From assembly GCF_004117855.1 (NCBI RefSeq), contig NZ_QWBW01000018.1:39632-103257 (forward strand): a DNA stretch of 63,626 nt. Direction: 5' to 3'. The translations under genes and the position numbers were made by a program. Positions 39,755 to 55,744 of the stretch are shown piece by piece (within the stretch, counting starts at the first letter, position 1; every line of letters starts with the position of its first letter). The notes under the pieces were generated by a model. The model had not been told where the DNA came from, searched no databases, and worked only from the letters and a program-made list of their open reading frames with translations. Source of the DNA: Modicisalibacter coralii (lineage in GTDB: Bacteria; Pseudomonadota; Gammaproteobacteria; Pseudomonadales; Halomonadaceae).

Positions 39755-41245
39755 CTACACCAACTGCAAGTAGAGCAGGCGGCTGCCTGACGAGGTCCCG
39801 GTCAACAGTTGCAGTCCGTCGGCGAGTTCCACCTTGCCGCCTACCGGTATTGACTCCCCCGTTCCCACATTCACCAACGCCGGCATGCCCTCGTTGACCA
39901 GGAACCAACGTGCCTTGTGGTGCACGAAATAACCGACACGCGATTTGTGCCTCTCGGCCAGTCGCTCGTTGGGCACGATCGTTCGATCGATGTGCCAGGG
40001 AAAGAGACTCTGATTGGAGTAAACCATCAACCGATGGTTATCCGGCCGGTAGCGGTCGCCTCGCTTCGAGTAAAGATTGATCACCGGCAGTCGCCCCCGA
40101 TAGGGCGTGCCACAGAAGGGGCAGCGTGGCGCCCTGGTGTTGTCGAAGACGAACCAGCCTTGCTGGCAGTCACGATTCTGGCACGGTTGAATCAGGTCGA
40201 CCGTCTTGATCAGTGCCGCCTCCCACTCGTCGGCACTGGGCCGGCTGCGAGGCTCGTGCAACCCCTCGATGAAGGCCCGGTCGAACAGTGCCTTGAGATA
40301 GGGACCGGTCACGGTATAGGGCAGCCGACTCGGGTCCTTCCACGGCATTTCGGTCGGTTTGGCCTCGCTGGGATCGATGCGGTTGCTGGCATCATCAGGG
40401 TGCTCGACGAACAGCGCCTCGGCCCCCATGGTCAGACGCTCGTCCTCGCCGGGGTCCTCGGCATGCACCTTTTTGCCGCGCAGCGGGTGCCGCAGCAGCA
40501 ACAGGGTGTAGACCATCACGGCCAGCGCATGCCGATCGGTCAGGATGCTGGGCAGGGCACGGTTCGGGTCGGTCTTCGGCAGATGGCTACTTGCCACGCA
40601 CTCCGGGGCGATAAAGTCGGGCGTGCCCACGACCTCCGGCGGGAAGCGATCGGGAACCACGAGTCCGTCGACATCGATGATGCAAACCTGGCCCTTGGTG
40701 GGAGCCAGCAGCACGTTCTTGTAGCTCAGGTCGCTATGCGCCAGCCCCGCCGCGTGCAATCGCCGCACGGCGCGTGCCAGACGCAGGCAAAGCTGCAGGT
40801 AATTGAGCCAGCTCCCCCGCTCGCGCGCATCGAGAAACTTGAACTGGTTGTTGGGTGACGCGAACCACTTGCCTTCCTTGTCCTTGCCCTGAATCTTGAG
40901 CATGTCGCCATTCAACGAACCATGCTCGAAGAAGAAGTGGTCCTTGTAGAAAGGCGCCACGATGCCGACCCGTCCATTGTGCTCCACCGTCGCGGTGGGC
41001 CAGCAGAATAGCTGTTCCCAATAATCGCCCTGGGTGTCGTCGAAAATCCGCTGACGATAGGTGCCGGTGATCATTTCCAGGCGCTGACGCGCTGCCGCAT
41101 CCAGGGCGTTGCGGTAGAACGCCACCACATAACGCTTGTCAGGACTGGCATAGACATCCTTCATGCCACCGCTGGCGATGATCTTGTCACGAAACTCGAC
41201 CCGCTCGCCGTTCGAATCGGTCAGGGTGATGATCGATTCACTCAT
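39755..41245 (-). CDS. Ter-associated protein kinase with zinc ribbon and FHA-like tail
   Basis: 496 residues from MSESIITLTDSNG. Kinase fold: nucleotide loop SGGMKDVY, catalytic loop AHSDLSYKNVLL (HSD with metal Asn), metal-binding DVDG in place of DFG, and APEC. A four-Cys zinc ribbon follows (CQNRDCQQGWF...CPFCG, near residues 355-385), then a C-terminal beta-rich region resembling an FHA domain. Last gene of the arm terA-terY x3-phosphatase-kinase; overlaps the phosphatase by 8 bases. In described Ter systems this kinase, a PP2C phosphatase and TerY form a signalling triad. Confidence 0.82.
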   Translation of the reverse strand: MSESIITLTDSNGERVEFRDKIIASGGMKDVYASPDKRYVVAFYRNALDAAARQRLEMITGTYRQRIFDDTQGDYWEQLFCWPTATVEHNGRVGIVAPFYKDHFFFEHGSLNGDMLKIQGKDKEGKWFASPNNQFKFLDARERGSWLNYLQLCLRLARAVRRLHAAGLAHSDLSYKNVLLAPTKGQVCIIDVDGLVVPDRFPPEVVGTPDFIAPECVASSHLPKTDPNRALPSILTDRHALAVMVYTLLLLRHPLRGKKVHAEDPGEDERLTMGAEALFVEHPDDASNRIDPSEAKPTEMPWKDPSRLPYTVTGPYLKALFDRAFIEGLHEPRSRPSADEWEAALIKTVDLIQPCQNRDCQQGWFVFDNTRAPRCPFCGTPYRGRLPVINLYSKRGDRYRPDNHRLMVYSNQSLFPWHIDRTIVPNERLAERHKSRVGYFVHHKARWFLVNEGMPALVNVGTGESIPVGGKVELADGLQLLTGTSSGSRLLYLQLV

Positions 41246-42830
41246 CCGTAGCGTCTCCCGAGTCGGCATTCGCCACCCGACCGTCCCGATACAGCACCGC
41301 CAGCGTCCGGTCGTCGTGATGACGCTCGATGAAGAAATCCAGGTACTCGAGCAATGGGTCCCGCTCCTCCTCACACCGCGGTGCGGCCAGGACCGGAGCC
41401 AGTTCTCCGTATAGCGACCACCAGCCTGCGGCTTCCTGCATGGCGTTATCGGAATCGAACTTGGGATCGGTCACGCCATCGGTCGCCAGAATCAGCGCGT
41501 CGAGGGTTTCGAATACGCCGACCTTGACGCGCTGATAGAGGCTCTGCCCCTCCTGGAACAACGGGGCATCGAGAAAGCGGGTCTGCCCGGCATGCTGCCC
41601 CGAGTCGGCACTGTTCATGAGCGTCGCCCGACAGCCCTCGAAGAGCGCAGCGATCGCCCCGTCGCCGATACCGAAGGTCACCACCACGTGCCCTTGCGAG
41701 GTTTGCTTGTGCAGCGCCAGCAGCAGGGTGGTCGAAAAGGCCTTCAGGGGACGACCGGAGGCCTCGGCTTCGTCGTGGATCGCCCGGTGCCCCCGATGTA
41801 CGGCGGTAATGATGGTCTCCTGCAGGGGGATCACCAGCGCTTGCGGCATTCGCGAACGATCACCCTCCGCCCACCACGTCAACACGGCCCGCTCCAGCTC
41901 GGCACCGGCGTTCTCGTCGAGAGTCGAAAGCAGGGTATCGCGAGCGGTCGTCGTCGCCAGCAGGCTACCTTGTCGGGAAAATTCACAGGAACCCGCGCCA
42001 TCGCCAACCAACAACAGGTTCCAGCCTGATGTCGTGCGATCGATCACGCCTTCGTCATCCCGCTGACCGCCACGATGGGCGTGAGAGCGACCGCGCAGCG
42101 ATCCCACGGCCATACGCCAGCCATCGCCCGCCGCCAGCCGTTCGACCACGGCGTCGGGCTTGGCGTAGGGCGCATTCGGGTCGGACGCCCGGTTCTGCCA
42201 GAGGTCCCGTGAACTCGGGATCAGCGCCAGCTTGAGTGTCAGGCGCTCGACCGGCTCATCGCGACTATCGACTCCCACCATCGACAGCACCACCGAACCG
42301 CTCAGCGTCGGCTTGCCCTGCAGCCACCGCGTCTCGGTCAACGTCAGGCCGGTGCCGGCATCGTCCTCGAGAACCAGGCGCGACGGCAGGTGGTCGATCA
42401 CCGCGTCGAGCTCGACCTCGTAAACCTGGCCGACGCGGCCGTTGGGCAGGCTCTCGGTGCGGGCCGGCACCGGCGGTGGCTCGGGCGGGGGGGCCGACGA
42501 TACCGGAATGTCGCCGGGCTGCAGAGAGGCGGCGGCGTGCGGGTCATCCGAGTCGGTATCATGATGTCCAGACACTGTGGTTTCCTCGCTGATGGCGATG
42601 CCCGGCGTGAAGCCGTCCGGCTGGACTTCTGGCGCTTGGTGCTTCTCGGCGCTCTCGGCAAAGTGCCGAGCCAGCTTGTCATGCAATTGCTCTCGAAACG
42701 CGTCGATCATCTCCGCCGCGTCGGTCTCGGTCATCACGCGCTCCATCAGGCTATCCTTCAGTCGCTGCCGAGGATTCGCGTACATCAAGCTGGAGAGCAC
42801 GCGGGTGTAATACGCTTGCGACCGCCTCAC
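41238..42830 (-). CDS. Ter-associated PP2C-family protein phosphatase
   Basis: 530 residues. The first ~110 are charged and Pro-rich with low complexity; about 125-215 is a beta-rich segment; the rest is a PP2C metal-dependent Ser/Thr phosphatase with VGDGAGSCEFSRQGSLL, TFGIGDGAI and ILATDGVTD metal sites. It would reverse the action of the neighbouring kinase, possibly on TerY or TerD-family proteins. Overlaps the preceding terY3 by 4 bases and the kinase by 8, so all three are coupled. Confidence 0.85.
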   Translation of the reverse strand: MRRSQAYYTRVLSSLMYANPRQRLKDSLMERVMTETDAAEMIDAFREQLHDKLARHFAESAEKHQAPEVQPDGFTPGIAISEETTVSGHHDTDSDDPHAAASLQPGDIPVSSAPPPEPPPVPARTESLPNGRVGQVYEVELDAVIDHLPSRLVLEDDAGTGLTLTETRWLQGKPTLSGSVVLSMVGVDSRDEPVERLTLKLALIPSSRDLWQNRASDPNAPYAKPDAVVERLAAGDGWRMAVGSLRGRSHAHRGGQRDDEGVIDRTTSGWNLLLVGDGAGSCEFSRQGSLLATTTARDTLLSTLDENAGAELERAVLTWWAEGDRSRMPQALVIPLQETIITAVHRGHRAIHDEAEASGRPLKAFSTTLLLALHKQTSQGHVVVTFGIGDGAIAALFEGCRATLMNSADSGQHAGQTRFLDAPLFQEGQSLYQRVKVGVFETLDALILATDGVTDPKFDSDNAMQEAAGWWSLYGELAPVLAAPRCEEERDPLLEYLDFFIERHHDDRTLAVLYRDGRVANADSGDATDE

Positions 42831-43876
42831 CCTTGCCCCCTGCCGATATCGAAACGGCTACCACCACCGTCGCCGAACTCGATGGAGGCATCACACCAGG
42901 GGCAGGTCTGCACCCCGGGCCCGTTGCAGCACATCAACCTGCCACAACGGCACATCGCAAACGACGTGGCCGCTGCACAATGCGGACACGGCGGCACGCC
43001 CTCGAGCTGATCGCTGCTAACCGTCGAGGCACTCCCCCCTTCAGCACTCCATTCGAAATACGTTTCGCTCAACGGATAGGCACCCTCGAGTCCGTAGACG
43101 CCCTGCCCTGCAGGCCCACCGAAGCCCCCTGGCACCGATATGGCGTTGTACTTGAGCAGGTACGGCTTCCGGCTGCGATGGCAACGCCCGGTAAAGACGA
43201 CGACCTGATCGTCGACTGGCGCCGCATCGCCATCCTTGACCAGGCTGATCCCCACCTCCTCGGCCTTGGCCAGTGAAATACCCGGTGCGCTCTGGCCCAT
43301 GTCGAGCGCCTGACTCTGAGCGGCGACCGACGCGGAGACCCATCGCGCGAAGCGGCTCAGATCATCGTCACCACCGGCCCCCAGGGCCACGACATCATCG
43401 GTGAGCTGCTTGAGTATCCGGGCATCGGCGGCGCCGCCCAGGGTCACGGCAATCAGGTGGGCACGACTGGCATACTGCTGGCGCCAACGACGAATCGCCG
43501 CCTCGGTACGATCGGTCGGACGGCCATCGGTCAGCAGGTAGACAACCGGCTCCCAGTCACCTCGTCGATCGGGCGTGGTCTTCTTGACATCGACCTCGAT
43601 ACGCGTCATCAGCTCATCGAGCGCCTCGCCCAGCGCCGTGCCGCCCCCCAGGGGCAAGCGCGGCGGATAGAAGCTCATCAACTCGACCAATGGCACCACC
43701 ATGCCCGCCTTCCCGGCGAAGGCGATCACCGAGATGTACACAGTCTCCAGGGCGTTGGGATCCTGACGAAGCTGCTCGACGATCGACTCCATGGCAGCCT
43801 GCAACTGAACCAGTGGCTCGCCAGCCATGGACTCCGAGACATCGAGCACGAAGAAAATCGGTAAACGTCGCATCAC
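42827..43876 (-). CDS. TerY-like vWA protein 3 with C-terminal zinc ribbon
   Basis: 349 residues. vWA domain (1-200) with metal-site DVSES (about 12-16), a Thr in GGGTALGEALDE and LTDGRPTD. After it comes a ~80-residue beta-rich region, then two Cys-rich motifs, CPHCAAATSFAMCRCG and CPWC, forming a zinc ribbon. Nine bases after terY2. Of the three vWA copies only this one has the extra domains, so it is the likely bridge to the phosphatase and kinase. Confidence 0.85.
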   Translation of the reverse strand: MMRRLPIFFVLDVSESMAGEPLVQLQAAMESIVEQLRQDPNALETVYISVIAFAGKAGMVVPLVELMSFYPPRLPLGGGTALGEALDELMTRIEVDVKKTTPDRRGDWEPVVYLLTDGRPTDRTEAAIRRWRQQYASRAHLIAVTLGGAADARILKQLTDDVVALGAGGDDDLSRFARWVSASVAAQSQALDMGQSAPGISLAKAEEVGISLVKDGDAAPVDDQVVVFTGRCHRSRKPYLLKYNAISVPGGFGGPAGQGVYGLEGAYPLSETYFEWSAEGGSASTVSSDQLEGVPPCPHCAAATSFAMCRCGRLMCCNGPGVQTCPWCDASIEFGDGGGSRFDIGRGQG

Positions 43877-43885
43877 GGCCTCGCG

Positions 43886-44530
43886 TTACAAGACAACCTG
43901 AACTTCGTCGGGCGGCGGCGGCAAGGTGATGTCATCGTCAGCACCATGCTGCTGGCCGCTGGCGTTAGCCGCGATGGAGGCCGAAACCCACTGGAAGTAC
44001 GTGGCGAAACCGGCACTGTCCATGGTCTCGAGACTCACCGTCTTGGTCGCGAACTTCTTCAGATGCTCCTGCTTGGCCTTAGGGCCCGCGGCACAGGCGA
44101 TGATCTCCGAGAACTTCATCCCCTTGATACGCTTTACCGCCGCCTCGAAGTCCATCAGGTCCGACGGTGCGCCATCGGTCATGACGAACAGCATCGGTCG
44201 AAAGTCGCCCTTCTGCTCGGCGGTCGAAGTGATGACGTCCCGCTCCACACAATCGCAAACCTTGTCGAGACCTTCCCCCATATGGGTCGCTCCGGAACGG
44301 GGCAGCTCGATGTCCTCGACCTGGGCGTCGGCCAACGGCTGCAGGGGGAGCAGCTCCTTCACCTGATGATCGAAGGTAATGACCGAAAGGTACACGGTCT
44401 CCAGCGCATAGGGATCCTGGCGCAGAGCCGTCAGCATCGCTGCCAGCCCAACGTTGACCGACTGAATGGGCTCGCCGCGCATGGAGCCCGACGAGTCGAT
44501 GAGCAAATAAATGGGTAGTCGACGATCCAT
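43886..44530 (-). CDS. TerY-like vWA protein 2
   Basis: 214 residues from the ATG with AGGAG 4 bases upstream. A bare vWA domain with a canonical metal site: DSSGSM (about 11-16), GATHMGEGLD and MTDGAPSD. vWA domains of this type bind partner proteins through a metal ion. Related to terY1 (44545) and to the N-terminal part of terY3; the trio looks like tandem duplication followed by divergence. Confidence 0.86.
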   Translation of the reverse strand: MDRRLPIYLLIDSSGSMRGEPIQSVNVGLAAMLTALRQDPYALETVYLSVITFDHQVKELLPLQPLADAQVEDIELPRSGATHMGEGLDKVCDCVERDVITSTAEQKGDFRPMLFVMTDGAPSDLMDFEAAVKRIKGMKFSEIIACAAGPKAKQEHLKKFATKTVSLETMDSAGFATYFQWVSASIAANASGQQHGADDDITLPPPPDEVQVVL

Positions 44531-44544
44531 GGTGACTCCTGGCC

Positions 44545-45189
44545 TCAATCTTTGTGCAGGTCGATGACATTGATTTCTCGAGGCGGCGGCGGCAGTTCCG
44601 CAACGCCATCGCCGCCGCCGGACTCCACGGACTGGCTGGTCATCGAGACGCTTGCCGACACCCAGGCGAAGAAAGCGCGGATCGACTCGGCGTCGTTACT
44701 GTCCAACCGAACCACATCCGTGGCGAACCGCTGCAGATCCGCCACGTCGGCCTCGGCACCCGCCGCGCAGCCAACCACCTTGGCCACGCTGACGTTCTTC
44801 ATGGCCTGGACACCGGCCTCCAGGTCATCATTGGCAACGCCATCGGTGAACACGAAGACCAGCGGGCGCCAGTCACCCTTGGCATCACGGGTCGCTGTCT
44901 TGACCTCCCGGCGGATTCCCTCGGCGGTCAGCGTCAACGCGGCGCCAAGGGACGTCGAACCATCCGGACGGAGCGTGGGCGGCTGGAAGGTCATCAGGTC
45001 GGACAACCCCACGGTATGCTCGGCTTTCGAGCTGAACTCGATGACCGAGAGATGCACCGTCTCCAGGGCGAAAGGGTCTTGTCGCAACATGTCGACAAGC
45101 GCCTGCAGCCCTTGGTTGACGGCATCGATCGGCTCACCGGCCATGGAATAGGACTTGTCGAGGACAAGGTACACGGGCAGTCGTCTCAT
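44545..45189 (-). CDS. terY: TerY-like vWA protein 1
   Basis: 214 residues from the ATG with GAGGA 5 bases upstream. vWA metal site DKSYSM, then GSTSLGAALTL and FTDGVANDD. TerY was named in the plasmid tellurite loci of enterobacteria. Same length as terY2, 14 bases apart. A 137-base gap with a nested hairpin separates it from terA. Confidence 0.86.
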   Translation of the reverse strand: MRRLPVYLVLDKSYSMAGEPIDAVNQGLQALVDMLRQDPFALETVHLSVIEFSSKAEHTVGLSDLMTFQPPTLRPDGSTSLGAALTLTAEGIRREVKTATRDAKGDWRPLVFVFTDGVANDDLEAGVQAMKNVSVAKVVGCAAGAEADVADLQRFATDVVRLDSNDAESIRAFFAWVSASVSMTSQSVESGGGDGVAELPPPPREINVIDLHKD

Positions 45190-45225
45190 GGATTCCTCAT
45201 GACGGTTAGTGTCGGTAGTGCGCGA

Positions 45226-45277
45226 TGGTGGGTCGACGTCGCCGATTCCCCGAGACCGCTCGGGACGCGACCCACCA
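45226..45277 (-). repeat. Nested hairpin between terA and terY1
   Basis: An outer perfect 10-bp stem TGGTGGGTCG / CGACCCACCA (45226-45235 and 45268-45277) encloses a second stem CCCGAG / CTCGGG (45249-45264). No U-tract. In the terA-terY transcript this would fold stably and could act as attenuator or processing site. Confidence 0.6.
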
Positions 45278-45326
45278 GGCATGATAGGAGCATGGCAGGC
45301 CCATCAGACGTTCCCGCCGCCGCGGC

Positions 45327-46520
45327 CTACTTCCGACCCGCCTTCCAGCGGAAGCCGAAGCCGTACTGCTTGTCCGCGACCTGGTGGCCCGCGAAGTAAT
45401 TCACTTCCTTGGAGATGTGCAACGCACCGTCTCGATTTTCCAGCATTGCGATCACGCAGAAGTTCTGCTGGCTGCCACTGGCATCCATGCGGATCTCGAT
45501 TTCCGGTTGGTCGGGCGTCTTGATCACGACACGGCCATCGGTCTGGGCCCAGTTGGGCACACCCTCGTAGATGAAGGCGAAGATCATCACACGCTTGACG
45601 TCGCTCCAGTGCTTGCCATTGATATAGAGGTTTTCGCCGGCATTCACCGCCCCCGTTCGATCGTCGCCATCCAGGAAGATGTAGGGAGCACTGTCGAGGC
45701 TACCGAAATGCCGGCCGAGGGCCTGCACGATGCCCTTGGTGCCATCGCGAAACTCGTACATGCACCCCAGGTCCAGATCGATGCCCCCCGACTTGCCGCC
45801 ACCCAGTAGCGAGCCCAGCAAGCCTTTCTTGGCGCCGCCACCGCCGCCCGGGTTCCAGTTCAGGTTGACGTGGATCTTGCCGAAAGAGCTCGACGTCTTT
45901 TCCAGCGATATCGTGTCGCCCTTCTTGTCCAGGGTTATCTTACTGAGATTGATCGACTTCTTGGCCTCGGGACCGGGCTTGGCCGCTGACGGCGTCTCAC
46001 GAGGCGTGGCCTGGCCGGCGCCACCCTCGACCTCGACGCCAAAGTGTTCGGCGAGCGGCGCCATGCCGCCGGCAAACCCCTGGTCGACCACTTTCACCTT
46101 CCATTCATCATTGCGACGATACAATTCACAGACGATCAGGGATTTCTCGGGACGTCCGGCGCCTTGGCCGTCGAACGTGAAGTCGTCGCCTGCGCCGAAG
46201 AGCCGAAAGCTGTAGCCGCCGGCCAGTGCGGACAGGCCTTGCTCGACGGTCAGGACGAAGGCGATGCGCTCCAGGTGCGGCGGCACCTTGCTCAAGTCGA
46301 CGCTAAACGTTGACCCGTCTTCCTGCGACACCGCACCGGAGGCATGACGTGGCTGATTGAAGAAGACGAAATCGACATCGGACGACACCTTGCCAGTCTT
46401 GGCGAGCAGGATCGCCGAGGCATCCAGGTCGATGGACGATGCATGGTCGACATTGAACTGCAACGTCAGCTGCGACGTCGAAAGCTTGGCATTCTGGCCA
46501 GCGACGAGAGGGTTACTCAT
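45327..46520 (-). CDS. terA: Two-domain TerA-type tellurium/stress protein
   Basis: 397 residues with two TerD-like beta-sandwich domains. The first (1-160) has SIDLDASAILL but lacks the second acidic motif (SQEDGSTFS). A Pro/Ala linker follows. The second (about 200-390) has GGIDLDLGCMYEFRDG and LDGDDRTGAVNAGE, the calcium-binding pattern of TerD proteins. An inserted loop, KKGLLGSLLGGGKSGG, lies between strands. Length and two-domain form match TerA. Cytoplasmic, no signal. First gene of the minus arm; GAGGAT precedes the ATG. Confidence 0.86.
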   Translation of the reverse strand: MSNPLVAGQNAKLSTSQLTLQFNVDHASSIDLDASAILLAKTGKVSSDVDFVFFNQPRHASGAVSQEDGSTFSVDLSKVPPHLERIAFVLTVEQGLSALAGGYSFRLFGAGDDFTFDGQGAGRPEKSLIVCELYRRNDEWKVKVVDQGFAGGMAPLAEHFGVEVEGGAGQATPRETPSAAKPGPEAKKSINLSKITLDKKGDTISLEKTSSSFGKIHVNLNWNPGGGGGAKKGLLGSLLGGGKSGGIDLDLGCMYEFRDGTKGIVQALGRHFGSLDSAPYIFLDGDDRTGAVNAGENLYINGKHWSDVKRVMIFAFIYEGVPNWAQTDGRVVIKTPDQPEIEIRMDASGSQQNFCVIAMLENRDGALHISKEVNYFAGHQVADKQYGFGFRWKAGRK

Positions 46521-47079
46521 TGCTTACTACATCCTCGGTTAAGGCAATTGCCGACGGTCATACCGCGATTTCGGCGCAGCCACTGACGGCAGGGCGGCTG
46601 GCCATACCAGCATTCGCAGAGATCGCCAGCGTCGACAATGGCAAAAGTCTCATGACGTGGCTAGAGAAACGTCGAGCCGACCTCGCAACCACTCCCATTG
46701 TCGGCGATCACTTACAAAAGCAATGGCAAATGTCTTACACGCTTGACCGGCGCTGCAAGAAGGGGGTAAAGAGCACTGGAAAGCAAGGAACTTCATGGTT
46801 AAATTGATGTCCTTTCCTGCAACCTCATTGACACTCCGGGTATCTTGGAGGCAGCAAGCCGTAACGCACCTTTCGGCCTGCGACTTATAACCTTCTGTCG
46901 CTCAAGGCTTTTCCATTCGACCCACGGACATCCGAGAAAGGCAAGAGTTTTTTTACACGCCTGTCAAAACCCCTCCAAATGGGGCAGCGGAAACGACAGG
47001 ATATCCATTGAAACGACAATGATTTTTAGTAACCTACGCTGAAATAACCGCTCATCATACGCTATCACTAGAGGTAAGC
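46521..47079. other. 559-base divergent regulatory region of the Ter island
   Basis: By eye this is poorer in GC than its surroundings. No protein frame is supported: the two open frames (46520 and 46845) lack ribosome sites and family features. It must hold the promoters of both ter arms. A candidate plus promoter is at 47008-47035. Confidence 0.5.
47006..47035 (+). promoter_or_regulatory. Candidate promoter and small palindrome ahead of terB
   Basis: TTGAAA (47008-47013) and TAACCT (47030-47035) are 16 bases apart. The -35 lies in a small palindrome, CATTG-N6-CAATG (47006-47021), a possible operator. About 45 bases before the terB ATG. Confidence 0.35.
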
Positions 47080-47544
47080 ATGCTCAATTCCATCGTTGCG
47101 AAAGCCCGTGAATCCTTCTCGTCCCTCAAGGCAGACGCCCAGAAATTCAAGAACGACAGCTTCCTGAATGCAGCCATGGCAGCCAGTGCCATGATCACCG
47201 TTGCCGATGGCACCATCAGCCGCGAGGAAAAGCAGAAGGCGATCGCCTTCGTGCGCGCCCACGATGCGCTCAGTGTCTTCGACCCCAGCGAAGTTGCCAA
47301 GCGTTTCAAGAATTATCTGGATGCCTTGGACGCCGACAATCCCGACACGGATGTCGATATCGCCGAAATCACCGCCATGAGCGACATCGGCAAGGTCAGG
47401 AAAAATCCGGACCAGGCACGCATGGTGGTACGCCTGGCAATCGCCATCGGCGGCGCGGACGGCGACTTCGATGCTCAGGAGCAGGCTCAAGCCTCCAAGA
47501 TCGCCAAGGAGCTGGGTCTCGATCCGGCAGAATTCGGCCTGTAA
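47080..47544 (+). CDS. terB: TerB-family stress protein
   Basis: 154 residues, all-helical and acidic. Core AAMAASAMITVADGTISREEKQKAIAFVRAHD (cited in part: VADGTISREE) and the repeated acidic site IGGADGDFDAQEQ are the TerB metal-binding helical repeats. It is the first gene of the plus arm. TerB is thought to bind TerC on the cytoplasmic side of the membrane. GAGGT precedes the ATG. Confidence 0.92.
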   Translation: MLNSIVAKARESFSSLKADAQKFKNDSFLNAAMAASAMITVADGTISREEKQKAIAFVRAHDALSVFDPSEVAKRFKNYLDALDADNPDTDVDIAEITAMSDIGKVRKNPDQARMVVRLAIAIGGADGDFDAQEQAQASKIAKELGLDPAEFGL

Positions 47545-47559
47545 AGAGACGCTCACTAC

Positions 47560-48561
47560 ATGGACTTTGGCTTTCCCGTCGAGGCGGTCGTCATTCTGGC
47601 GATCGCCGTCGTGGCATCGGTGTGGCTCGACCTGTTCTCGCATCGCAATGCCGAAGAAGTCACCTTCAAGAACGCCGCCGCCTGGTCGGTCTTCTGGATC
47701 GCCCTGGCATTGGCCTTCTATGGCTATCTGAACCTTCGCTATTCGCCGGAAGCCGCGAGCCTTTTCCTGTCGGGTTATGTGCTCGAAAAAGCACTTTCGA
47801 TCGATAACATGATGGTATTCGTGGCAATCTTCGCGAGCTTCAACATCAAGGGGATCCTCCAGCACCGGATCCTTTACTACGGCATTGCTGGCGCCTTGGT
47901 CTTCCGCGCCATCTTCGTCGCCGCGGGCACTGCAGTGTTCGGCCTTTCCCACTGGATCGAAGTCTTGTTCGCCGCCATCGTCCTGTGGACCGGTGTCAAG
48001 ATGTTCATCGGCAGCGCCGATGACGAGGCGTCCGAGGATTACTCCGATCACTGGTCCGTTCGGTTGACTCGCCGTATCGTGCCGGTGATCCCACGACTGG
48101 TCGGCAAGCATTTCCTGGTGCGCAAGGACAAGGCTTATGAGGTCGCCGAACGGGAAGGCTTCGAGCTGCCAAAGCGGGCGGCCTTCTATGCCACCCCAAT
48201 GCTGCTGTGTCTGATGTGCATCGAGATCTCCGACATCATCTTCAGCTTTGACAGCGTACCGGCCATCATTGCCGTCACGCAGGAGCCCTTCCTCGTCTAC
48301 GCCTCGGTGATCTTCGCGATCCTCGGGCTGCGTAACCTCTACTTCATGCTGGCCGCCGCCGCCAAGTATCTCGTCTACCTGGAGAAGGCTGTCGCGCTGG
48401 TACTGGTGTTTATCGCCGCGAAGCTGGCAAGCTCGGCGCTGGGCATCTACCACATCGACCATCAGGTCAGTCTGTTCGTGGTGCTGGCATTGATCCTCGG
48501 AGGCGTCCTGATAAGCCTGGTGTTTCCGGCCAAGGAAGAGAGCGTTAGCAACAACAACTAG
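47560..48561 (+). CDS. terC: TerC-family integral membrane protein
   Basis: 333 residues with about nine membrane helices. Family marks: GYVLEKALSIDNMMVF with acidic residues in the membrane (GLSIDN type), LCLMCIEISDIIFSFDSVPAIIAVT, and FAILGLRNLYFMLA. TerC members act in metal ion handling (Mn exporters such as MntP/YkoY relatives) and partner TerB and TerD proteins. Fifteen bases after terB. A stem-loop follows the stop. Confidence 0.94.
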   Translation: MDFGFPVEAVVILAIAVVASVWLDLFSHRNAEEVTFKNAAAWSVFWIALALAFYGYLNLRYSPEAASLFLSGYVLEKALSIDNMMVFVAIFASFNIKGILQHRILYYGIAGALVFRAIFVAAGTAVFGLSHWIEVLFAAIVLWTGVKMFIGSADDEASEDYSDHWSVRLTRRIVPVIPRLVGKHFLVRKDKAYEVAEREGFELPKRAAFYATPMLLCLMCIEISDIIFSFDSVPAIIAVTQEPFLVYASVIFAILGLRNLYFMLAAAAKYLVYLEKAVALVLVFIAAKLASSALGIYHIDHQVSLFVVLALILGGVLISLVFPAKEESVSNNN

Positions 48562-48568
48562 GTATCCG

Positions 48569-48665: not shown

Positions 48666-49238
48666 ATGATCGATCTGAGCAAGGGCAGCCGCATCAACCT
48701 GTCCAAGGAAGCCCCCGGCGCCACGAAATTCACCCTCGGCATGGGCTGGGACACTCGCATCACGGATGGCGCCGACTTCGACCTGGACGCCTCTGCACTC
48801 CTGCTGGACGCCAATGATCAGCCCGTCGGCGGCACCAGTTCCCTGGTGTTCTACGGCCAGCTTGCGTCACCGTGCGGCGGCGTCGCTTCTTCCGGCGACA
48901 ACCGCACCGGCGAAGGCGACGGCGATGATGAGACCATCACGGTCGACCTGACCCAGCTCAATGCCGACATCGCGAAGATCGTGCTTGTCGTTACCATCCA
49001 CGAAGCGGATGCCCGCGGCCAGAACTTCGGCATGGTCAATAACGCTTTCGTACGCATCCTCAAGGATGGTAACGACGAGCCGGTCGCACGCTACGACCTA
49101 TCCGAAGACTACTCCACCGAAACCGCGGTCATCTTCGGTGAACTGTACAAGAAGGATGGTGACTGGCGCTTCGCTGCCAAGGGCGATGGCTTCGCCGGTG
49201 GCTTGGCCGCCTTCCTCAAAGGCTACGGCCTCCAGTAA
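48666..49238 (+). CDS. terD: TerD-family calcium-binding stress protein
   Basis: 190 residues from the ATG with AAGGAG upstream. Single TerD beta-sandwich with the two acidic calcium motifs DFDLDAS (about 34-40) and GDNRTGEGDGDDE (about 77-89). Starts IDLSKGSRINLSKEAP and ends AAFLKGYGLQ, as classic TerD. Cytoplasmic. Confidence 0.93.
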   Translation: MIDLSKGSRINLSKEAPGATKFTLGMGWDTRITDGADFDLDASALLLDANDQPVGGTSSLVFYGQLASPCGGVASSGDNRTGEGDGDDETITVDLTQLNADIAKIVLVVTIHEADARGQNFGMVNNAFVRILKDGNDEPVARYDLSEDYSTETAVIFGELYKKDGDWRFAAKGDGFAGGLAAFLKGYGLQ

Positions 49239-49303: not shown

Positions 49304-49882
49304 ATGGCTATTTCTCTTTCCAAAGGCGGCAACATCTCGCTGAGCAAGGAAGCCCCGGGGATCAAGAAGATCCGCATCGGGCTGGGATGGGATGCCCGTG
49401 TCACCACGGGGCAGGACTTCGACCTCGATGCCAGCATTTTTCTGACCAATAGCGAAGGCAAGTGTCGCCAAGATCAGGACTTCATCTTCTACAACAACCT
49501 GAAATCCACCGACGGTTCGGTGGAGCACATGGGTGACAACCGCACCGGCGCAGGCGACGGCGATGACGAAGTCATCAAGGTCGACCTCGAGAAGGTCCCG
49601 TCAGACGTCGACAAGATCGCCGTTACCGTCACCATCCATGACGCTCAATCGCGTGGACAAAACTTCGGCCAGGTCGAGAATGCCTTTGCCCGCGTCATCA
49701 ACGACGAGAGCGATCAAGAGATCGTGCGTTATGACTTGTCCGAAGACTACTCGGTGGAAGACGCAATGATCTTCTGCGAAGTCTATCGCAACAACGGTGA
49801 GTGGAAGTTCCGTGCCATCGGCCAGGGCTTCAGTGGCGGTCTCGCCGACTTGGCATCCAAGTACGGTTTGAATGCTTCCTGA
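49304..49882 (+). CDS. terE: TerD-family protein (TerE/TerZ type)
   Basis: 192 residues, start [19 protein letters not shown], calcium motifs DFDLDAS and [13 protein letters not shown] both intact, ends [10 protein letters not shown]. Closely similar to terD 65 bases upstream, so a duplication. Assignment to TerE rather than TerZ follows gene order and is not firm. Confidence 0.9.
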
Positions 49883-49892
49883 ATCGACACTC

Positions 49893-49923
49893 GGGTGGGG
49901 GCTTTTCTTGCCCCTACCCTTTG
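49893..49923 (+). terminator. Stem-loop after terE
   Basis: GGGTGGGGG pairs with CCCCTACCC (one G-T pair), 9-base loop, followed by TTT. May partly separate the Ter protein genes from the enzyme genes that follow on the same strand. Confidence 0.5.
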
Positions 49924-49939
49924 AGCTGGAGAAGACGGC

Positions 49940-50371
49940 ATGTCGATGAAAGCCAAGCTTCGAGCCGATCTGATCGGTGCGGGCGAAGGGGCCTTCTGGT
50001 TAGTGATAACCTGGCTCGTGACTTGGGGAATGATGGTGCATAACGACTGGCTTTATCTGCTGGCGTTCGGCTTGTCGGTTCTGGCCGGCGGCGTATGCTT
50101 CCTGCATCGACGTTCGGCGATCACCATGGGGCGTTATCGTGTCAGGGTCGGTCGCACGGAGATGTGGTGGCACCTGCTGGTAATTCCGGTGCTGTTGGCA
50201 CTGGTGATCTGGACCATTCTGGAAAGCCTGTTCGGCGGGATCGACGATGCCCGCTACAAGCTGGTACTTCTGGCCAGCTTGAGCACCGCCGGCTGGGTGG
50301 TTTACTGCCTGACCAACATCTTGAAGCGGGTTTTCCAGAGTTTCCGGAACAACCGGAAAAGACCGGCATGA
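49940..50371 (+). CDS. Unknown membrane protein inside the Ter island
   Basis: 143 residues, not recognised. Four hydrophobic segments at about 18-34, 40-55, 74-93 and 108-125; basic tail (RVFQSFRNNRKRPA). The head MSMKAKLRADLIGAGEGAFW is charged. Its stop overlaps the ATG of the PRTase gene by 4 bases, so it is co-translated with the enzyme set and may anchor it to TerC at the membrane. That link is inferred. Confidence 0.7.
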   Translation: MSMKAKLRADLIGAGEGAFWLVITWLVTWGMMVHNDWLYLLAFGLSVLAGGVCFLHRRSAITMGRYRVRVGRTEMWWHLLVIPVLLALVIWTILESLFGGIDDARYKLVLLASLSTAGWVVYCLTNILKRVFQSFRNNRKRPA

Positions 50372-51540
50372 GTACGCAGAACATGATCCACGGTATTCAG
50401 GCGGGTCGTCTGACACTAGAACTCACCGACAATGGTCACCGACTCGACGAACTCCTCGCGTTCGCCTCGCGTCTCAACCCTCGCCGGGGGTACCTGTTCG
50501 TGTCGCGCGTCCTGGGCAAACACATTCCGGTTCGCCCGACAAAGATGGATGCCATTCATGCCGAACTCGCAGAATCCATTCGTCTACTCGGTGACACAGC
50601 CTATGTGGTGGGCATGGCCGAGACCGCCGTGGGCCTTGGCGCCGGCATCGCTCGTCACCTGGGAGACTTGCATACGCATAGCGTCTTCCACCACACCACG
50701 CGATTTCTGGTACCCGACCCCTGGATACGTATCCGGGAGGCACATTCGCATGCCGATACCATGCACATGGCACGGCTTTCCAGCGAGGCCGCACTAGCCA
50801 TCGAGGGCACCCGGGATCTGGTACTGGTCGACGACGAGATATCGACCGGTTTGACCCTGGCGCAACTTGCCAGCACATTGCTCGCCCAGCCCGAGCTGGC
50901 CCACGTCAAACGGCTGCACATCGTCTCGCTGGTGAGCTGGTTGACCGACGCTGCCCGGTCCCGGCTGTTGGCGGCATTGCCGAGACACGTCGATGTCGAC
51001 TTCGTGCAGTTGATGGCCGGCACGTTCGACTTCTCGCCGGATCCCACCTACCAGGCGAGCTTGCCGGGCGATGTCGACACCGACTTCTGCGATGTCTTGC
51101 TGACCTCCAGCGAGTCGCCTGATACTCCCCGCCCCCTTGAACGAGAAGGCCTTTACGGCAAGATTCTCACCGCGACGCCCCTGGCCCCCTCACGGGAAAT
51201 AGAACTGCACCGGAGACTCGACCCTAGCCGACCCCATGTGGTCTATGGCATGGGCGAGTTTCTCGATGCCCCTTTCCGGCTGGCCCTGGATCTCGAGAAG
51301 CAAGGCATGGATGTCCTTTTCCAAAGCTCGACACGTTCACCGATCGCACTCGGCGACGCCGTGACATCCCGCCTTGAGCACCCTGCTCCCGGTAATAATG
51401 GCAAGACCCACTTCTTGTACAACGCCCCATTACGCCATACCCCCCTGGCCTTCGACGGCATCGGCCGTCCGGCATTGAGCCAGGCACTCGAAGCAGCTCA
51501 CCGGCGTCTCGCCGGGCAAGCCGATGGAGTCATGGCATGA
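50368..51540 (+). CDS. Ter-island phosphoribosyltransferase with C-terminal TRSP domain
   Basis: 390 residues. PRTase fold with PRPP loop LVLVDDEISTGLT (about 150-162); C-terminal TRSP domain, named for a motif visible here as QSSTRSPIALGDAV near residue 315. In published analyses of Ter systems by Anantharaman, Iyer and Aravind, this is one of two PRTases of a predicted route to a nucleoside-like metabolite. Overlaps the next gene by 4 bases. Confidence 0.84.
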   Translation: MSTQNMIHGIQAGRLTLELTDNGHRLDELLAFASRLNPRRGYLFVSRVLGKHIPVRPTKMDAIHAELAESIRLLGDTAYVVGMAETAVGLGAGIARHLGDLHTHSVFHHTTRFLVPDPWIRIREAHSHADTMHMARLSSEAALAIEGTRDLVLVDDEISTGLTLAQLASTLLAQPELAHVKRLHIVSLVSWLTDAARSRLLAALPRHVDVDFVQLMAGTFDFSPDPTYQASLPGDVDTDFCDVLLTSSESPDTPRPLEREGLYGKILTATPLAPSREIELHRRLDPSRPHVVYGMGEFLDAPFRLALDLEKQGMDVLFQSSTRSPIALGDAVTSRLEHPAPGNNGKTHFLYNAPLRHTPLAFDGIGRPALSQALEAAHRRLAGQADGVMA

Positions 51541-52295
51541 GCGGGGGCCGACTTATTCTGCTGACCGATCTGGACGACACACTGTTTACCAGTGAGCGGT
51601 CCCTGCCCGATACGGCGACCGGGGTAAACCTGGCGGCCGTCGATGGCCAGGGGCGACCACTATCCTTCCAGACCCATCAACAGCACACGCTGTGGCGATT
51701 GCTCGCGGAATCGGCAGACCTCATCGTTCCGGTGACCGGTCGAACCAGCTATGCACTGGAACGTGTTGCACTGCCATTCCGGGGGGGCTATGCCGTGGTC
51801 AGCCATGGTGCACTGGTCACCCAAAACGGGCGGGTACACCCAGCATGGCGGGCACGCCTGGCGCCTCGACTCGACGAGGCGCGAAGCGTCCTTGCTCGGG
51901 CTCATGCCGCACTGCAAGCAACTCTGCCAAGTGCCTATCCGGCACTGGACGTTTCACTGCGCCTGCTCGAGGATCTCGAGGTGCCTGTGTATCTATCAAT
52001 CAAGGCATCCGGAACGCTGCCCGATGAGGCACATGACCTGTGCGCACGCATCGCCCGGGAGCATGGGCTGAATCTCCACGCCAATCGGCGCAATGCCGCT
52101 CTGCGCCCACCCTATACCTGCAAGGCCGAGGCCTGCCGCTTCCTGCTCGACGAGGTCGTTCAGCGCCAGCCCGAGGATACCGTGATAACCCTCGGTGACA
52201 GCCTATCGGATCTGCGTTTCATGACCCGGGGAGACATGGCCTTGATACCCACGCAGAGTCAAATCTGGAACCAGCTGAAGGATATCGCACAATGA
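51537..52295 (+). CDS. HAD-superfamily phosphatase of the Ter enzyme set
   Basis: 252 residues. HAD motifs: LLTDLDDTLF (nucleophile and acid Asp), VPVTGRTSY, Lys in YTCKAEACRF and TLGDSLSDLRFM. The cap domain is of the Cof/SPP type. Expected to remove a phosphate from a sugar-phosphate or nucleotide intermediate. Overlaps both neighbours by 4 bases. Confidence 0.87.
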   Translation: MSGGRLILLTDLDDTLFTSERSLPDTATGVNLAAVDGQGRPLSFQTHQQHTLWRLLAESADLIVPVTGRTSYALERVALPFRGGYAVVSHGALVTQNGRVHPAWRARLAPRLDEARSVLARAHAALQATLPSAYPALDVSLRLLEDLEVPVYLSIKASGTLPDEAHDLCARIAREHGLNLHANRRNAALRPPYTCKAEACRFLLDEVVQRQPEDTVITLGDSLSDLRFMTRGDMALIPTQSQIWNQLKDIAQ

Positions 52296-53425
52296 CTGCG
52301 GCCGCGCTCGCCCCTCTGCATGGCTCCTATCTGCCGGATGACTGCCAGTTCCTGCTGACCCCGATCGAGGCGGACTACCTTACCATCGAGGAAAAAGAGC
52401 GCCGAATCCAGTCGGGCCAGGCTCACTACAGCGAGATGATTCATCGCGAGTCAGCGCCCAGCCCTCGCTACCTGGCACTGTTCGAGACGCTCTGCGAGCG
52501 CTATGCGCCTCGCCTCGCCAATGAAGTTCGTCAGCTCGCAAGCCAGATCGTCGCTGACCTGGGACACAGCGACACGCCACTCGTCCTGGTGAGTCTGGTG
52601 CGGGCAGGAACACCGGCCGGCGCCCTTCTGCGCCGCGCGCTGATCAACCATGAACATCAGGCCTGCCATCATTACAGTGTCTCGATAATCCGCGACCGCG
52701 GCATCGATAGCATCGCGATGGATTATCTGCTGGACGATGTCGGCGTCGACCCCCGACGTGTCGTCTTCGTCGATGCCTGGACAGCCAAGGGTGTCATCAC
52801 TCGCGAGCTTCGTCAGGACATAGCCCGCTACAACGACACGCGCCGAGCCAGGAACAAGGACACCATCGTTCCGCGGCTGGCGGTGATCTCGGACATTGGC
52901 GGCACTGCCGACTACGCGGCAACCTGCGAGGATTACGCGATCCCCTCCGGCATACTCAATGCCACCGTGTCGGGTCTCGTTTCGCGCTCGGTGCTCAATC
53001 ATCGAGTGCCGGCCGGTGCCTTCCACGGCTGCGTGGTGTACCACGAACTCGCCGAACACGACCGTAGCCAAGCCTTCATCGAGCATGTCGCTGCGCATCT
53101 GGTCACACCGAGCCCAGCGGTCGCCCCTCCGTCGGACGCCGACCGGACCCGCCAGCAGGCCCTGATGCAGGCAATGCTCGACCGGATCCAGCGCGACTAC
53201 GCGGTCCATGATATCAACCACATCAAGCCGGGCATCGCCGAAGCCACGCGGGTGATGCTGCGCCGTGTACCGGCCTTGTTGATGGTGCGCGACCCGGCGC
53301 ATCCCGATGTCGAGCATCTTCTGCTGCTTGCCGAGGAAAAGGGCGTGGCAATCGAGGTACGCCCCGACATGCCTTTTCATGCCTGCTCACTGATCCAGGC
53401 CCTGGTTCATCAGGAGGCGCCATGA
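52292..53425 (+). CDS. PRTase with PELOTA-type RNA-binding domain (StiP family)
   Basis: 377 residues. StiP-type start LLTPIEADYLTIEEKERRIQSG, PRPP motif VVFVDAWTAKGVITREL (about 155-171), and a C-terminal PELOTA-like RNA-binding domain ending RPDMPFHACSLIQ. The family was first named cysteine protease StiP in error; the fold is a phosphoribosyltransferase. It may attach or transfer a base-like group with RNA as partner. Function unproven. Confidence 0.84.
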   Translation: MTAAALAPLHGSYLPDDCQFLLTPIEADYLTIEEKERRIQSGQAHYSEMIHRESAPSPRYLALFETLCERYAPRLANEVRQLASQIVADLGHSDTPLVLVSLVRAGTPAGALLRRALINHEHQACHHYSVSIIRDRGIDSIAMDYLLDDVGVDPRRVVFVDAWTAKGVITRELRQDIARYNDTRRARNKDTIVPRLAVISDIGGTADYAATCEDYAIPSGILNATVSGLVSRSVLNHRVPAGAFHGCVVYHELAEHDRSQAFIEHVAAHLVTPSPAVAPPSDADRTRQQALMQAMLDRIQRDYAVHDINHIKPGIAEATRVMLRRVPALLMVRDPAHPDVEHLLLLAEEKGVAIEVRPDMPFHACSLIQALVHQEAP

Positions 53426-54297
53426 TGACCTGCCCTCGCTATGGCGATATGGGCGCCTCCCTCTATGTACCGGCGACCCACAAGTCGCTCGAGAGCATTC
53501 TTGCCGATGGCTGTCATGGCGCACGGTCACTGATCCTGTGCACCGAGGATGCCGTGGCAGCCGATGCGGTGGCCTGGGCCGTTCGCCGCTTGATCCGAAC
53601 GCTGCAGGCCGCTCCCGCCCAGGTAACATTTCTACGTTTCGTGCGGCCACGCAATCCGTTCGTGCTTCGCCAGTTGATAGAAGTGCCCGAGGCCCTGGCA
53701 CGCCTCGATGGCGTGGTGATCCCCAAATTCGACGATACCTCGGCCCCAGAGTGGCACGACGTGCTCGAGCGTTGCCCCCAGTTGCCCGTCATGCCAACCC
53801 TCGAAACCCCCTCGCTATTTCGCGAGGACACCGCCTTGGCGACACTCGAGGCCGTCCAGAGCCTACGCAACCCGGTGATCGCGCTGCGTATCGGCGCCAA
53901 CGATCTACTGGGCGCCATCGGTCTCAAGCGCCAACCAGGTCAAACGGTCTACGAAACGCCGCTGCGCTCGACACTGGAACGCCTGATCACGCTGTTCCGA
54001 CCGGCGGGTTATGAACTAGCCGCGCCGGTCTGCGACCTGATCGGCGAGACGGAGACGCTCTCCCGTGAAGTCGCCCAGGACATCGCCTGGGGCTTCTATT
54101 CCAAGACCTGCGTACATCCCTCCCAGCTGGCAGTGATCGAAGAGCATTTTGCCCAGGCCTTGAGACGTCAGAAACAACAGGCCCACGCCTTGCTCAACAG
54201 CCACGATGCCGTTTTTCAGGATGCCGGCCAGATGCTGGAGCAAGCCTGCCACAGTCACTGGGCAAGGCGTATCGCCACCCTGCAGTCCACTTCATAG
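53422..54297 (+). CDS. HpcH/CitE-like TIM-barrel lyase of the Ter enzyme set
   Basis: 291 residues. Relatives split or join C-C bonds with CoA esters or oxaloacetate-like substrates. MGASLYVPATHKSLESIL near the start, VIPKFDD, PVMPTLETPSL, RIGANDLLGAIGL and SKTCVHPSQL fit the family. Overlaps the preceding gene by 4 bases; last of four coupled enzymes. Substrate unknown. Confidence 0.85.
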   Translation: MMTCPRYGDMGASLYVPATHKSLESILADGCHGARSLILCTEDAVAADAVAWAVRRLIRTLQAAPAQVTFLRFVRPRNPFVLRQLIEVPEALARLDGVVIPKFDDTSAPEWHDVLERCPQLPVMPTLETPSLFREDTALATLEAVQSLRNPVIALRIGANDLLGAIGLKRQPGQTVYETPLRSTLERLITLFRPAGYELAAPVCDLIGETETLSREVAQDIAWGFYSKTCVHPSQLAVIEEHFAQALRRQKQQAHALLNSHDAVFQDAGQMLEQACHSHWARRIATLQSTS

Positions 54298-54320
54298 CCC
54301 AATAACGCGAGAGAACCGAG

Positions 54321-55055
54321 ATGATCAACCTTACCAAGCCCGACGAAACGGCAACGATCGACCTGAGCAAGGGAAGTTCCGACATCGTGGTCCGCGCCCA
54401 ATGGGTCGACAATGGCGATGGCGACGATGGCAACGACGACCTCGACCTGCGCTGCTCGATCCTGCATCCGGGTGACAAGATGTACTTGGTGGACGGCGAA
54501 TATCGCGGCTCGCTTCAGGAACCGCCGTTCGCCCATCACCACGGCGACGTCCAGAGTGCCAGCGTCGACATGCCCGGCGAAGAGGTGATCACCGTGGCGC
54601 GTGATATCGCCAAGCGGGCCGGCGGCCCCGTGGCTTTGTGCTTCAGCGTCTACTCGGCGCTGAACAATGGCGCGGTCTCGGTCGCCTCCCTACGCCCGCA
54701 AATGAAGATGAGCTGTGGCAACGATGAGGTCGTTTGCAGCTTCGATTTCAACCAGGGACCCGGCGCCAACAATCCCAACATCTACACCTATGTCATCGGC
54801 TACGCGATTGTCACCGAGGACGAAGTCATCCTTGCGCCATCCGGCAAGACCTCGAAGCCAGGTCAAGAAGAAACACCGTGGATCTTCTGGAAGAATGACT
54901 CTATCGATATCGATATTGTCGGTCCAGCCGTCTTCAAGGGTGCCCAGACCAAACACTCCGAAAAGTACAACAAGCAAGCCAATATTTCGTACCGTTTCGT
55001 GAATGTTCCCGCAACACCGAAAAAGAAAGGCCTGCTAGGCGGCCTATTCGGCTAA
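54321..55055 (+). CDS. Divergent TerD-like protein
   Basis: 244 residues. Starts INLTKPDETATIDLSKG, contains NGDGDDGNDDLDLRCSIL, a calcium-type acidic loop placed differently from TerD, and ends KKGLLGGLFG. The fold looks like a TerD/TerA relative, but one motif is rearranged. The tail KKGLLGG matches the insert KKGLLGS in terA. The gene starts 23 bases after the lyase. Not found under a common gene name by me. Confidence 0.7.
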   Translation: MINLTKPDETATIDLSKGSSDIVVRAQWVDNGDGDDGNDDLDLRCSILHPGDKMYLVDGEYRGSLQEPPFAHHHGDVQSASVDMPGEEVITVARDIAKRAGGPVALCFSVYSALNNGAVSVASLRPQMKMSCGNDEVVCSFDFNQGPGANNPNIYTYVIGYAIVTEDEVILAPSGKTSKPGQEETPWIFWKNDSIDIDIVGPAVFKGAQTKHSEKYNKQANISYRFVNVPATPKKKGLLGGLFG

Positions 55056-55069
55056 CGAGAGCAAGCCGG

Positions 55070-55090
55070 GCCGAGGCCGCTCGGCGTTTT
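55070..55090 (+). terminator. Terminator/attenuator between the last two ter genes
   Basis: GCCGAG-GCCG-CTCGGC followed by GTTTT, in the 77-base gap. Six-bp GC stem and short U-tract; partial termination is likely. Confidence 0.6.
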
Positions 55091-55132
55091 CCGTCGTAAT
55101 AGCAGTACACTCATTCATAGGAAGGAAATCGT

Positions 55133-55744
55133 ATGGCTATCAGTCTGTCCAAGGGGCAACGTATCAGCCTGGAAAAACAGGATGGCGGCACGCTCGACTA
55201 TATCGAGATCGGTGTTAACTGGGGGGCCATCGAGAAGAAAGGTTTCTTCGGCGGCAAGAAGCACGTCGCGGTCGACCTGGATGCCTCAGTAGGCCTGTTC
55301 GATGCGCAGGGTAATCTGGTCGATACGGTCTTTTTCCAGAAGCTCACTTCGTCATGCGGCTCGATCAAGCACAGCGGCGACGACCGAGTCGGTGATACGG
55401 GTGGCGACGATGGCCAAGACAACGAAGTCATTCAGATCGACCTCAAGAGCGTCCCGGCCAACGTCGACAAGCTGGCGCTGGTTCTGAACTCATTCTCGAT
55501 GCAGAACTTCGGCGAGATTCCCTTCGCAGGCATCCGTATCCACGACGGAAAAGCTGGCAAGGGCAACATCTTCGCGACCTTCGACGTCGCGAATGACCCC
55601 TCCTTCTCGGGCCGTGTAAGCATGATCATGGGCAGCGTATACCGTCACGAAAACACTTGGAAGTTTCGATCCATCGGCGCCGCCATCCCCGAGAAGCGGC
55701 TGCAGGATTCTCTAGCCGCCTTCGCTCGTGATTACGCAAACTGA
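55133..55744 (+). CDS. TerD-family protein (TerZ/TerX-like), last gene of the Ter island
   Basis: 203 residues. Start [19 protein letters not shown]; first acidic motif VAVDLDASVGL, second GDDRVGDTGGDDGQDNE with a longer loop than in terD. An inserted EKKGFFGGKKH segment follows the first strands. Ends FARDYAN. AGGAAG precedes the ATG. Resembles TerZ/TerX subfamily members, assignment tentative. Confidence 0.82.
   Translation: MAISLSKGQRISLEKQDGGTLDYIEIGVNWGAIEKKGFFGGKKHVAVDLDASVGLFDAQGNLVDTVFFQKLTSSCGSIKHSGDDRVGDTGGDDGQDNEVIQIDLKSVPANVDKLALVLNSFSMQNFGEIPFAGIRIHDGKAGKGNIFATFDVANDPSFSGRVSMIMGSVYRHENTWKFRSIGAAIPEKRLQDSLAAFARDYAN

Follow-up and report, generated by a model that had tools for sequence, protein, structure and literature searches.

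Ter-dependent stress response systems with a biosynthetic module were reportedly described by Anantharaman, Iyer and Aravind in 2012, and the product of that module is said to have been a prediction of the same year. In a general view Ter systems are signalling systems, and they have been outlined as a means of threat signalling (PMC7824862). The Klebsiella ter locus is summarized as a pair of operons on opposite strands; one of them is putatively biosynthetic, and its nucleoside-like metabolite was in 2021 still presented as a prediction (PMC8115787). In outline, terC and terD form the minimal tellurite-resistance pair of a Pseudomonas plasmid system, with terA or terZ easing its growth burden (PMC8779313). 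The TerY-P triad of TerY, a kinase and a PP2C phosphatase is sketched as lying beside DNA-processing genes in Helicobacter pylori (PMC4978471). Here, we analyze a stretch of 63,626 nucleotides from the halomonad Modicisalibacter coralii (contig NZ_QWBW01000018.1, positions 39,632 to 103,257; hereafter the window), which carries a 17-gene Ter island at window positions 39755-55744. On balance we favor the view that it is a Ter stress island of known type, probably acquired horizontally, and a Halomonadaceae variant without ATP-grasp that would make a nucleotide-like product under phospho-control.

Gene Content of the Island

The 17 genes diverge in two arms from a 559-bp intergenic region. The leftward arm holds terA, three TerY-type VWA genes and the genes of a PP2C phosphatase and a kinase; the rightward arm runs from terB, terC, terD and terE through a small membrane protein gene to PRTase-TRSP, HAD, StiP/PRTase-PELOTA, a CitE-like lyase and two TerD-like genes. 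A Pfam scan and motif checks placed every gene named in an earlier note on this DNA where that note had put it, and on the same strand. The TerY-P triad is present, with a TerY VWA protein that carries the TerY_C domain and adjacent PP2C and kinase genes. The biosynthetic cassette has a PRTase_2-TRSP protein, a StiP/PRTase-PELOTA protein, a HAD phosphatase and a CitE-like lyase, and no ATP-grasp. Pfam also recognized terA, terB, terC, terD and terE of the terZABCDEF operon. The terF label fell on no gene of the island, to which that comparison was confined, and the terF profile is a broad one (262 matches); Klebsiella terZ has the same profile label as the gene at 55133-55744.

Some labels of the earlier note needed qualification. 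The three genes that it called terY all encode VWA proteins, but the TerY_C domain occurs in one of them only. As to its two TerD-like genes, the last gene of the arm has the TerD domain, whereas the 244-residue protein at 54321-55055 has no Pfam match and owes its kinship to annotated homologues: its plasmid homologues have about 44% identity and the majority of those listed are annotated "TerD family protein," while comparison with the TerD profile gave a probability of 9.5% (E 0.0034) from four shallow rows. The HAD gene likewise has no Pfam match above the cut-off, and its NCBIfam matches are sub-cutoff; nonetheless, it has the DxDxT and GDxxxD motifs and 53-67% identity to the HAD proteins of relatives. 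The kinase, the PP2C phosphatase, the three VWA proteins, both PRTases, the HAD protein and the lyase carry what we take to be their catalytic or metal-binding motifs.

Overlaps of 4 bp join five genes, those of the membrane protein, PRTase, HAD, StiP and lyase, an arrangement that suggests translational coupling. The overlaps bear on the idea that the island is a tellurite or metal resistance determinant in which terC and terD (with terA) alone matter, the biosynthetic and phospho-signalling genes being passengers under weak selection. The minimal terCD pair of the Pseudomonas plasmid would fit this idea, as would the repeated variation in the presence of ATP-grasp and lyase. Against it stand the overlaps themselves, the presumed catalytic motifs and the lack of a terC label in the approximately 20-kb stretches around several StiP genes (StiP loci), L010 and L011 among them; we therefore regard it as unlikely.

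The phospho-signalling genes raise another possibility, that of an anti-phage or anti-plasmid defence island whose nucleotide-like product signals invasion. The threat-signalling view of Ter is in its favor, and the kinase weakly resembles the PD-T4-6, mad6 and MkoA models. However, the other 9 of the 10 proteins scanned (of 17) had no PADLOC match, and the Pfam scan of the 17 island proteins turned up nothing recognizable as a nuclease, toxin or DNA-processing domain, so that we give defence a somewhat smaller chance than a simple resistance function.

Absence of a Ter-Type ATP-Grasp

The earlier note saw no ATP-grasp in the island, and a genome-wide search found none of Ter type. Because PF15632 was too unspecific (13 of 14 controls matched it, and the window's genome had two matches below the cut-off), a model was built from 21 Ter-linked ATP-grasps and used for genome-wide searches at E 1e-10. 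It matched nothing in the window's genome (G000), in its relatives G006, G068, G070, G187 and G193, or in G189, whose StiP has the loop motif TGKG considered below. Four control loci outside the model (L036, L059, L062 and L083) scored 337-372 bits, some of them having close relatives in it. On this search we reject the idea that the window's genome simply has its Ter ATP-grasp at another place. Halomonas sp. LBP4 (L022), which completes the window's StiP group as its seventh genome, gave a 79-bit match that was counted as another ATP-grasp.

All 31 rows counted as lacking ATP-grasp, and all 10 counted as lacking the lyase, were searched genome-wide. Weak ATP-grasp matches of 48-79 bits (L022, L023 and L032) and a fragment in L095 were scored as absent, and L024, which has its gene on another contig, as present. 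The StiP tree of 99 rows, from a quick search, contains a 21-row clade (Shimodaira-Hasegawa-like approximate likelihood ratio test 100) in which 18 rows are without ATP-grasp and 3 have it. The gene is usual, and not universal, in reference plasmid Ter loci. The ter locus of Burkholderia sp. D-99 (L095, 6229-6860) has only fragments of an ATP-grasp gene, perhaps a recent loss, in an order otherwise like that of Pseudomonas loci.

The Enzymes of the Cassette

The AlphaFold2 model of PRTase-TRSP (predicted local distance difference test, pLDDT, 91.7) has human APRT as its best Foldseek match in the PDB (E 5.5e-5; template modelling (TM) score by target 0.71); Foldseek found no convincing PDB match for the TRSP part. 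For the StiP model (pLDDT 95.5) the best matches are HGPRTs (E 4.3e-6, TM by target about 0.5), and 50/50 among the matches listed are HGPRT-type enzymes. Sequence searches of the PDB with either protein returned no relatives. By its model StiP looks like an HGPRT-like phosphoribosyltransferase, which speaks against its database name, "cysteine protease StiP." A protease is unlikely on account of this predicted fold; in 52 aligned rows no Cys is fully invariant, though Cys247 nearly is, and a protease role keeps a slight chance.

In the model, the FVD-x-WT-x-KG stretch of StiP comes after a core strand, which we take to be the site of the phosphoribosyl pyrophosphate (PRPP) loops in type I PRTases. 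Among 100 rows the motif is TGKG in 63 with and 11 without ATP-grasp and in 2 unscored for it, and TAKG in 4 with and 19 without; 1 row could not be read. The presumed PRPP loop would thus have gone from TGKG to TAKG in the window's StiP clade. As the motif changes about four times on the tree, the correlation is mostly that of one clade and is not independent evidence.

The coincidence of the missing ATP-grasp and the Gly-to-Ala change in a single clade would also be expected of a decaying pathway, in which the cassette makes no product and only the ter genes work. Orotate PRTases carry Ala at the like position of their PRPP loop, and the change therefore need not inactivate StiP. Moreover, PRTase, HAD, StiP and lyase are kept in five relatives, at 53-77% identity to the window, and all four also in L022, and 36 StiP positions are invariant in the 52 rows, the window's included. 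Of the alternatives considered, decay is to us the least probable.

Nested Absence of Lyase and ATP-Grasp

Of 97 loci scored for both genes, 66 have lyase and ATP-grasp, 21 the lyase only and 10 neither; none has ATP-grasp only (Fisher's test, P = 3.5e-6, a value that ignores kinship). Three loci (L068, L089 and L102) have no score for at least one of the two traits. The lyase was not found genome-wide at E 1e-15 in 11 genomes (7 of 10 and 4 of 5 searched); the other four genomes of that search, which all have a local lyase and served as controls, were positive. Metagenome assemblies account for several of the genomes without lyase, although G467 and G313 have a listed completeness of 100%; incomplete metagenome genomes are the source of many of the loci, and some absences may therefore be gaps. 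Since no locus has ATP-grasp without lyase (0/97), our working hypothesis would be that PRTase-TRSP, HAD and StiP-PELOTA form the core of the pathway, to which the lyase and then ATP-grasp were later additions.

The sample has its own bias, because 80 of the loci are those closest to the query among at least 584 relatives; a phylum-wide sample, in which StiP occurs at E 1e-20 in 12/398 genomes, is less biased. Before counting, rows whose contig equalled another in length were dropped, namely L021 (L011 kept), L109 (L098 kept), L110 (L097 kept) and L017 (L012 kept), and a second tree was made without L102. That row, a 234.9-kb contig from a viral collection, has PRTase-TRSP, HAD and a very divergent StiP; lyase and ATP-grasp are both missing from its fetched stretch.

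Distribution and Genomic Site

The island is sporadic. A lyase match above 200 bits occurs in 10/201 Halomonadaceae genomes and, within the window's genus, in 1/14. The StiP cassette lies in the fetched stretch of 7/10 lyase loci, and two of the other three are on short contigs. One halomonad locus, L007, has a lyase-family member (367 bits) and no other labelled Ter gene in its 20-kb stretch. A phage search gave one record only, at 27% identity.

The site itself is variable. In the same-genus genome G098, speA, the ectD-like gene, tRNA-Thr and the cupin and amidase genes follow the window's order, and the distance from the ectD-like gene to the tRNA is about 4 kb; the window has about 21 kb there. 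The corresponding gap measures 3.2 kb in G110 and 6.7 kb in G118, where the cupin and amidase were unmatched in the stretches compared. Profiles found no Ter genes in the 20-kb stretch of G098 or in the stretches of G110 and G118. In the other 13 same-genus genomes, DNA matches to the gene of the flanking EAL protein are all short and weak; the chemoreceptor gene has one long match (74%), in a stretch of G019 without a tRNA. Given the shorter gaps and these poorly matched neighbours, the island with its flanking genes occupies a strain-variable gap beside the tRNA-Thr gene. None of the window proteins scanned with Pfam showed an integrase domain; the island was nonetheless probably acquired horizontally.

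Proposed Function

We propose the following scheme. PRTase-TRSP and StiP-PELOTA would draw on PRPP for the synthesis of a nucleotide-like compound, from which the HAD enzyme would remove phosphate and to or from which the CitE-like lyase would add or remove a short carbon unit. The resulting small molecule could then act, through the TerB and TerD-family proteins, on a membrane metal-handling complex centered on TerC, with the TerY, kinase and PP2C proteins tuning its state by reversible phosphorylation. The earlier note had likewise suggested that kinase and phosphatase may control the TerD proteins or the pathway. The scheme builds on the content and order of the genes, their presumed catalytic motifs, the lack of any Ter-type ATP-grasp in the searches, the sporadic presence of the island, the relatives with a shorter gap and the predicted PRTase folds; from these we infer the product, its signalling role, the targets of the kinase and the horizontal arrival. 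The ATP-grasp step would be a dispensable tailoring step.

Several results weigh against this interpretation. The earlier note had expected an ATP-grasp in the biosynthetic set, yet 8/12 StiP genomes of the phylum-wide sample are without it (of the positive ones, 1 is so genome-wide and 3 by local matches), and its absence is therefore common and no oddity of the window's genome. The trait also undergoes at least 15 changes on the StiP tree, against a shuffled mean near 27; taken with the 8/12 absences, this means that the island may lack the gene through nothing more than ordinary lability. The missing enzyme could be replaced by an ATP-grasp of non-Ter type encoded outside the island, and the StiP reaction might be altered, or even lost, with the TAKG loop. 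As to the nesting, an independent-pairs test that takes the tree into account had about 2 informative pairs of 13 and a median P of 0.5, and is underpowered, and L068 combines the absence of the lyase with a 117-bit ATP-grasp-like match, which makes it a possible counter-example.

We advance only tentatively, as a possibility with the odds against it, the further view that marine and halophilic bacteria have a distinct, ATP-grasp-free Ter subtype with a TAKG StiP, whose nucleotide-like signal is simpler than that of enterobacteria, the pathway having grown outward from its PRTase/HAD/PRTase core, with the lyase and then ATP-grasp as optional steps. If it were true, comparison of the subtypes would reveal the order of the pathway and its core product. 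Natural versions without ATP-grasp, together with relatives without the lyase, offer a graded series for reconstituting the minimal reaction and finding its product.

Features of the Island and Its Surroundings

The features are collected in Table 1. The start of the kinase gene is probably the ATG at 41245 rather than 41374, judging from its translation. That of the PP2C gene is uncertain, either the GTG at 42830, which gives a 4-bp overlap with the stop of the TerY_C gene, or about 42734. Scans for promoters and terminators gave counts near the shuffled means, with no sigma-70-like site listed in the 559-bp intergenic region, and alignment of this region with two other loci showed little similarity except at the terB-proximal end. 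The 143-residue membrane protein had no Pfam or NCBIfam match and no match in the plasmid search. The PhyH-family dioxygenase, the ectD-like gene product, presumably resembles ectoine hydroxylase.

Table 1. Positions in the window of the island genes and neighbouring features, with supporting evidence (E, expectation value)
Feature	Position	Strand	Evidence or remark
PhyH-family dioxygenase	35664-36881		conserved at left gap edge in three relatives
GGDEF/EAL protein	37972-39681		flanks island inside strain-variable gap
Protein kinase (TerY-P kinase)	39755-41245	-	PF00069 E 2.5e-9; motifs HxDxxxxN and IDVDG
PP2C phosphatase	41238-42830	-	PF13672 (PP2C_2) E 3.3e-30; Asp motifs present
TerY with TerY_C metal-binding domain	42827-43873	-	PF15616 E 3e-38, VWA E 8.5e-12; DxSxS and CxxC motifs
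TerY-type VWA protein 2	43886-44530	-	PF00092 E 3.9e-13; DxSxS
TerY-type VWA protein 1	44545-45189	-	PF00092 E 3.1e-11; DxSxS
terA (TerD domain and C-terminal region)	45327-46520	-	PF02342 E 1.1e-33
Divergent intergenic region, 559 bp, presumed promoter region	46521-47079	.	position between arms
terB	47080-47544	+	PF05099 E 3.1e-18
terC (TerC/Alx metal homeostasis membrane protein)	47560-48561	+	PF03741 E 3.3e-42; TIGR03718 above cut-off
terD	48666-49238	+	PF02342 E 3.4e-70
terE	49304-49882	+	PF02342 E 2e-87
143-aa membrane protein	49940-50371	+	two hydrophobic peaks; homologues 52% in L013 and L014
PRTase_2-TRSP phosphoribosyltransferase (predicted)	50368-51540	+	PF15609 E 1.3e-48; PF12500 (TRSP) E 5.1e-12; model
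HAD-IIB-like phosphatase	51537-52295	+	TIGR01486 E 2.8e-7, TIGR01484 E 6.8e-5, both sub-cutoff; DxDxT and GDxxxD
StiP, predicted HGPRT-like phosphoribosyltransferase with C-terminal PELOTA	52292-53425	+	PF11202 E 1.1e-91; PF15608 (PELOTA_1) E 5.9e-31; FVDAWTAKG loop
CitE/HpcH-HpaI-like C-C bond lyase	53422-54297	+	PF15617 (C-C_Bond_Lyase) E 5.2e-69; PDB relative 1sgj E 6.3e-10
244-aa divergent TerD-like protein	54321-55055	+	plasmid homologues, mostly annotated TerD family; weak profile match
TerD-domain protein	55133-55744	+	PF02342 E 9.1e-38
Chemoreceptor	56287-58041		flanks island inside strain-variable gap
tRNA-Thr(CGT)	58263-58338		adjoins variable gap holding island; same tRNA borders shorter gap in three same-genus relatives

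Comparison with Known Ter Systems

The earlier note was right to see in the island a Ter system of the published kind, in which phospho-signalling genes, TerD proteins and a biosynthetic cassette are united; its suggestion that the joint arrangement is special did not survive comparison. The divergent union of all Ter modules is not new. As a novelty it is ruled out by a Klebsiella plasmid locus, by L013 and L014 and by the at least 14/100 StiP-bearing loci in which TerY_C, PP2C and kinase genes share the stretch, many of the stretches compared being cut short by contig ends. The note had held that novelty would fall if the gene order recurred in other genera with a known product; the order does recur, in another Halomonadaceae genus, but no product is known.

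The Ter systems of 2012 reportedly share with the island PRTase-TRSP, HAD, StiP/PRTase-PELOTA, a CitE-like lyase, TerB, TerC and TerD family proteins and the TerY-P triad; the island differs in having no ATP-grasp, in its extra 143-residue membrane protein and in the position of terA at the head of the triad arm. An ATP-grasp-free Ter subtype did not appear in the literature searched by titles and abstract openings, and the founding paper of 2012 may describe one. The triad outlined in Helicobacter pylori has DNA-processing neighbours (PMC4978471), whereas none was seen in the island.

Among the individual loci, that of the Halomonas sp. I5-271120 plasmid NZ_CP130702.1 (L017) shares the rightward arm from terB to the last TerD gene, with no ATP-grasp annotated; it differs in being plasmid-borne and in having no terA, TerY-P arm or 143-residue protein gene in its stretch. 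Much closer are L013 (genome G006) and L014 (G068), both of one other Halomonadaceae genus, which repeat the order and orientation of the window's 17 genes at 45-86% protein identity, without ATP-grasp genome-wide; the L013 kinase matches in two frames and that of L014 is cut by the end of the stretch. The locus of Klebsiella pneumoniae plasmid pVA684-388 (L019) resembles the island in uniting all modules, including TerY_C, PP2C and kinase, in one divergent locus. Its order, however, is terF-E-D-C-B-A-Z, divergent from ATP-grasp, PRTase, HAD, StiP, lyase, DUF4236, terW, VWA genes, TerY_C, PP2C and kinase, and it differs in having ATP-grasp, terF, DUF4236 and terW, as well as a terZ next to terA, a gene whose profile label the window's last TerD gene shares. 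The biosynthetic cassette belongs to the triad arm in L019 and to the terBCDE arm in the window, where the gene of the 143-residue protein, directly 5' of the PRTase gene, takes the position occupied by ATP-grasp in L018 and L019.

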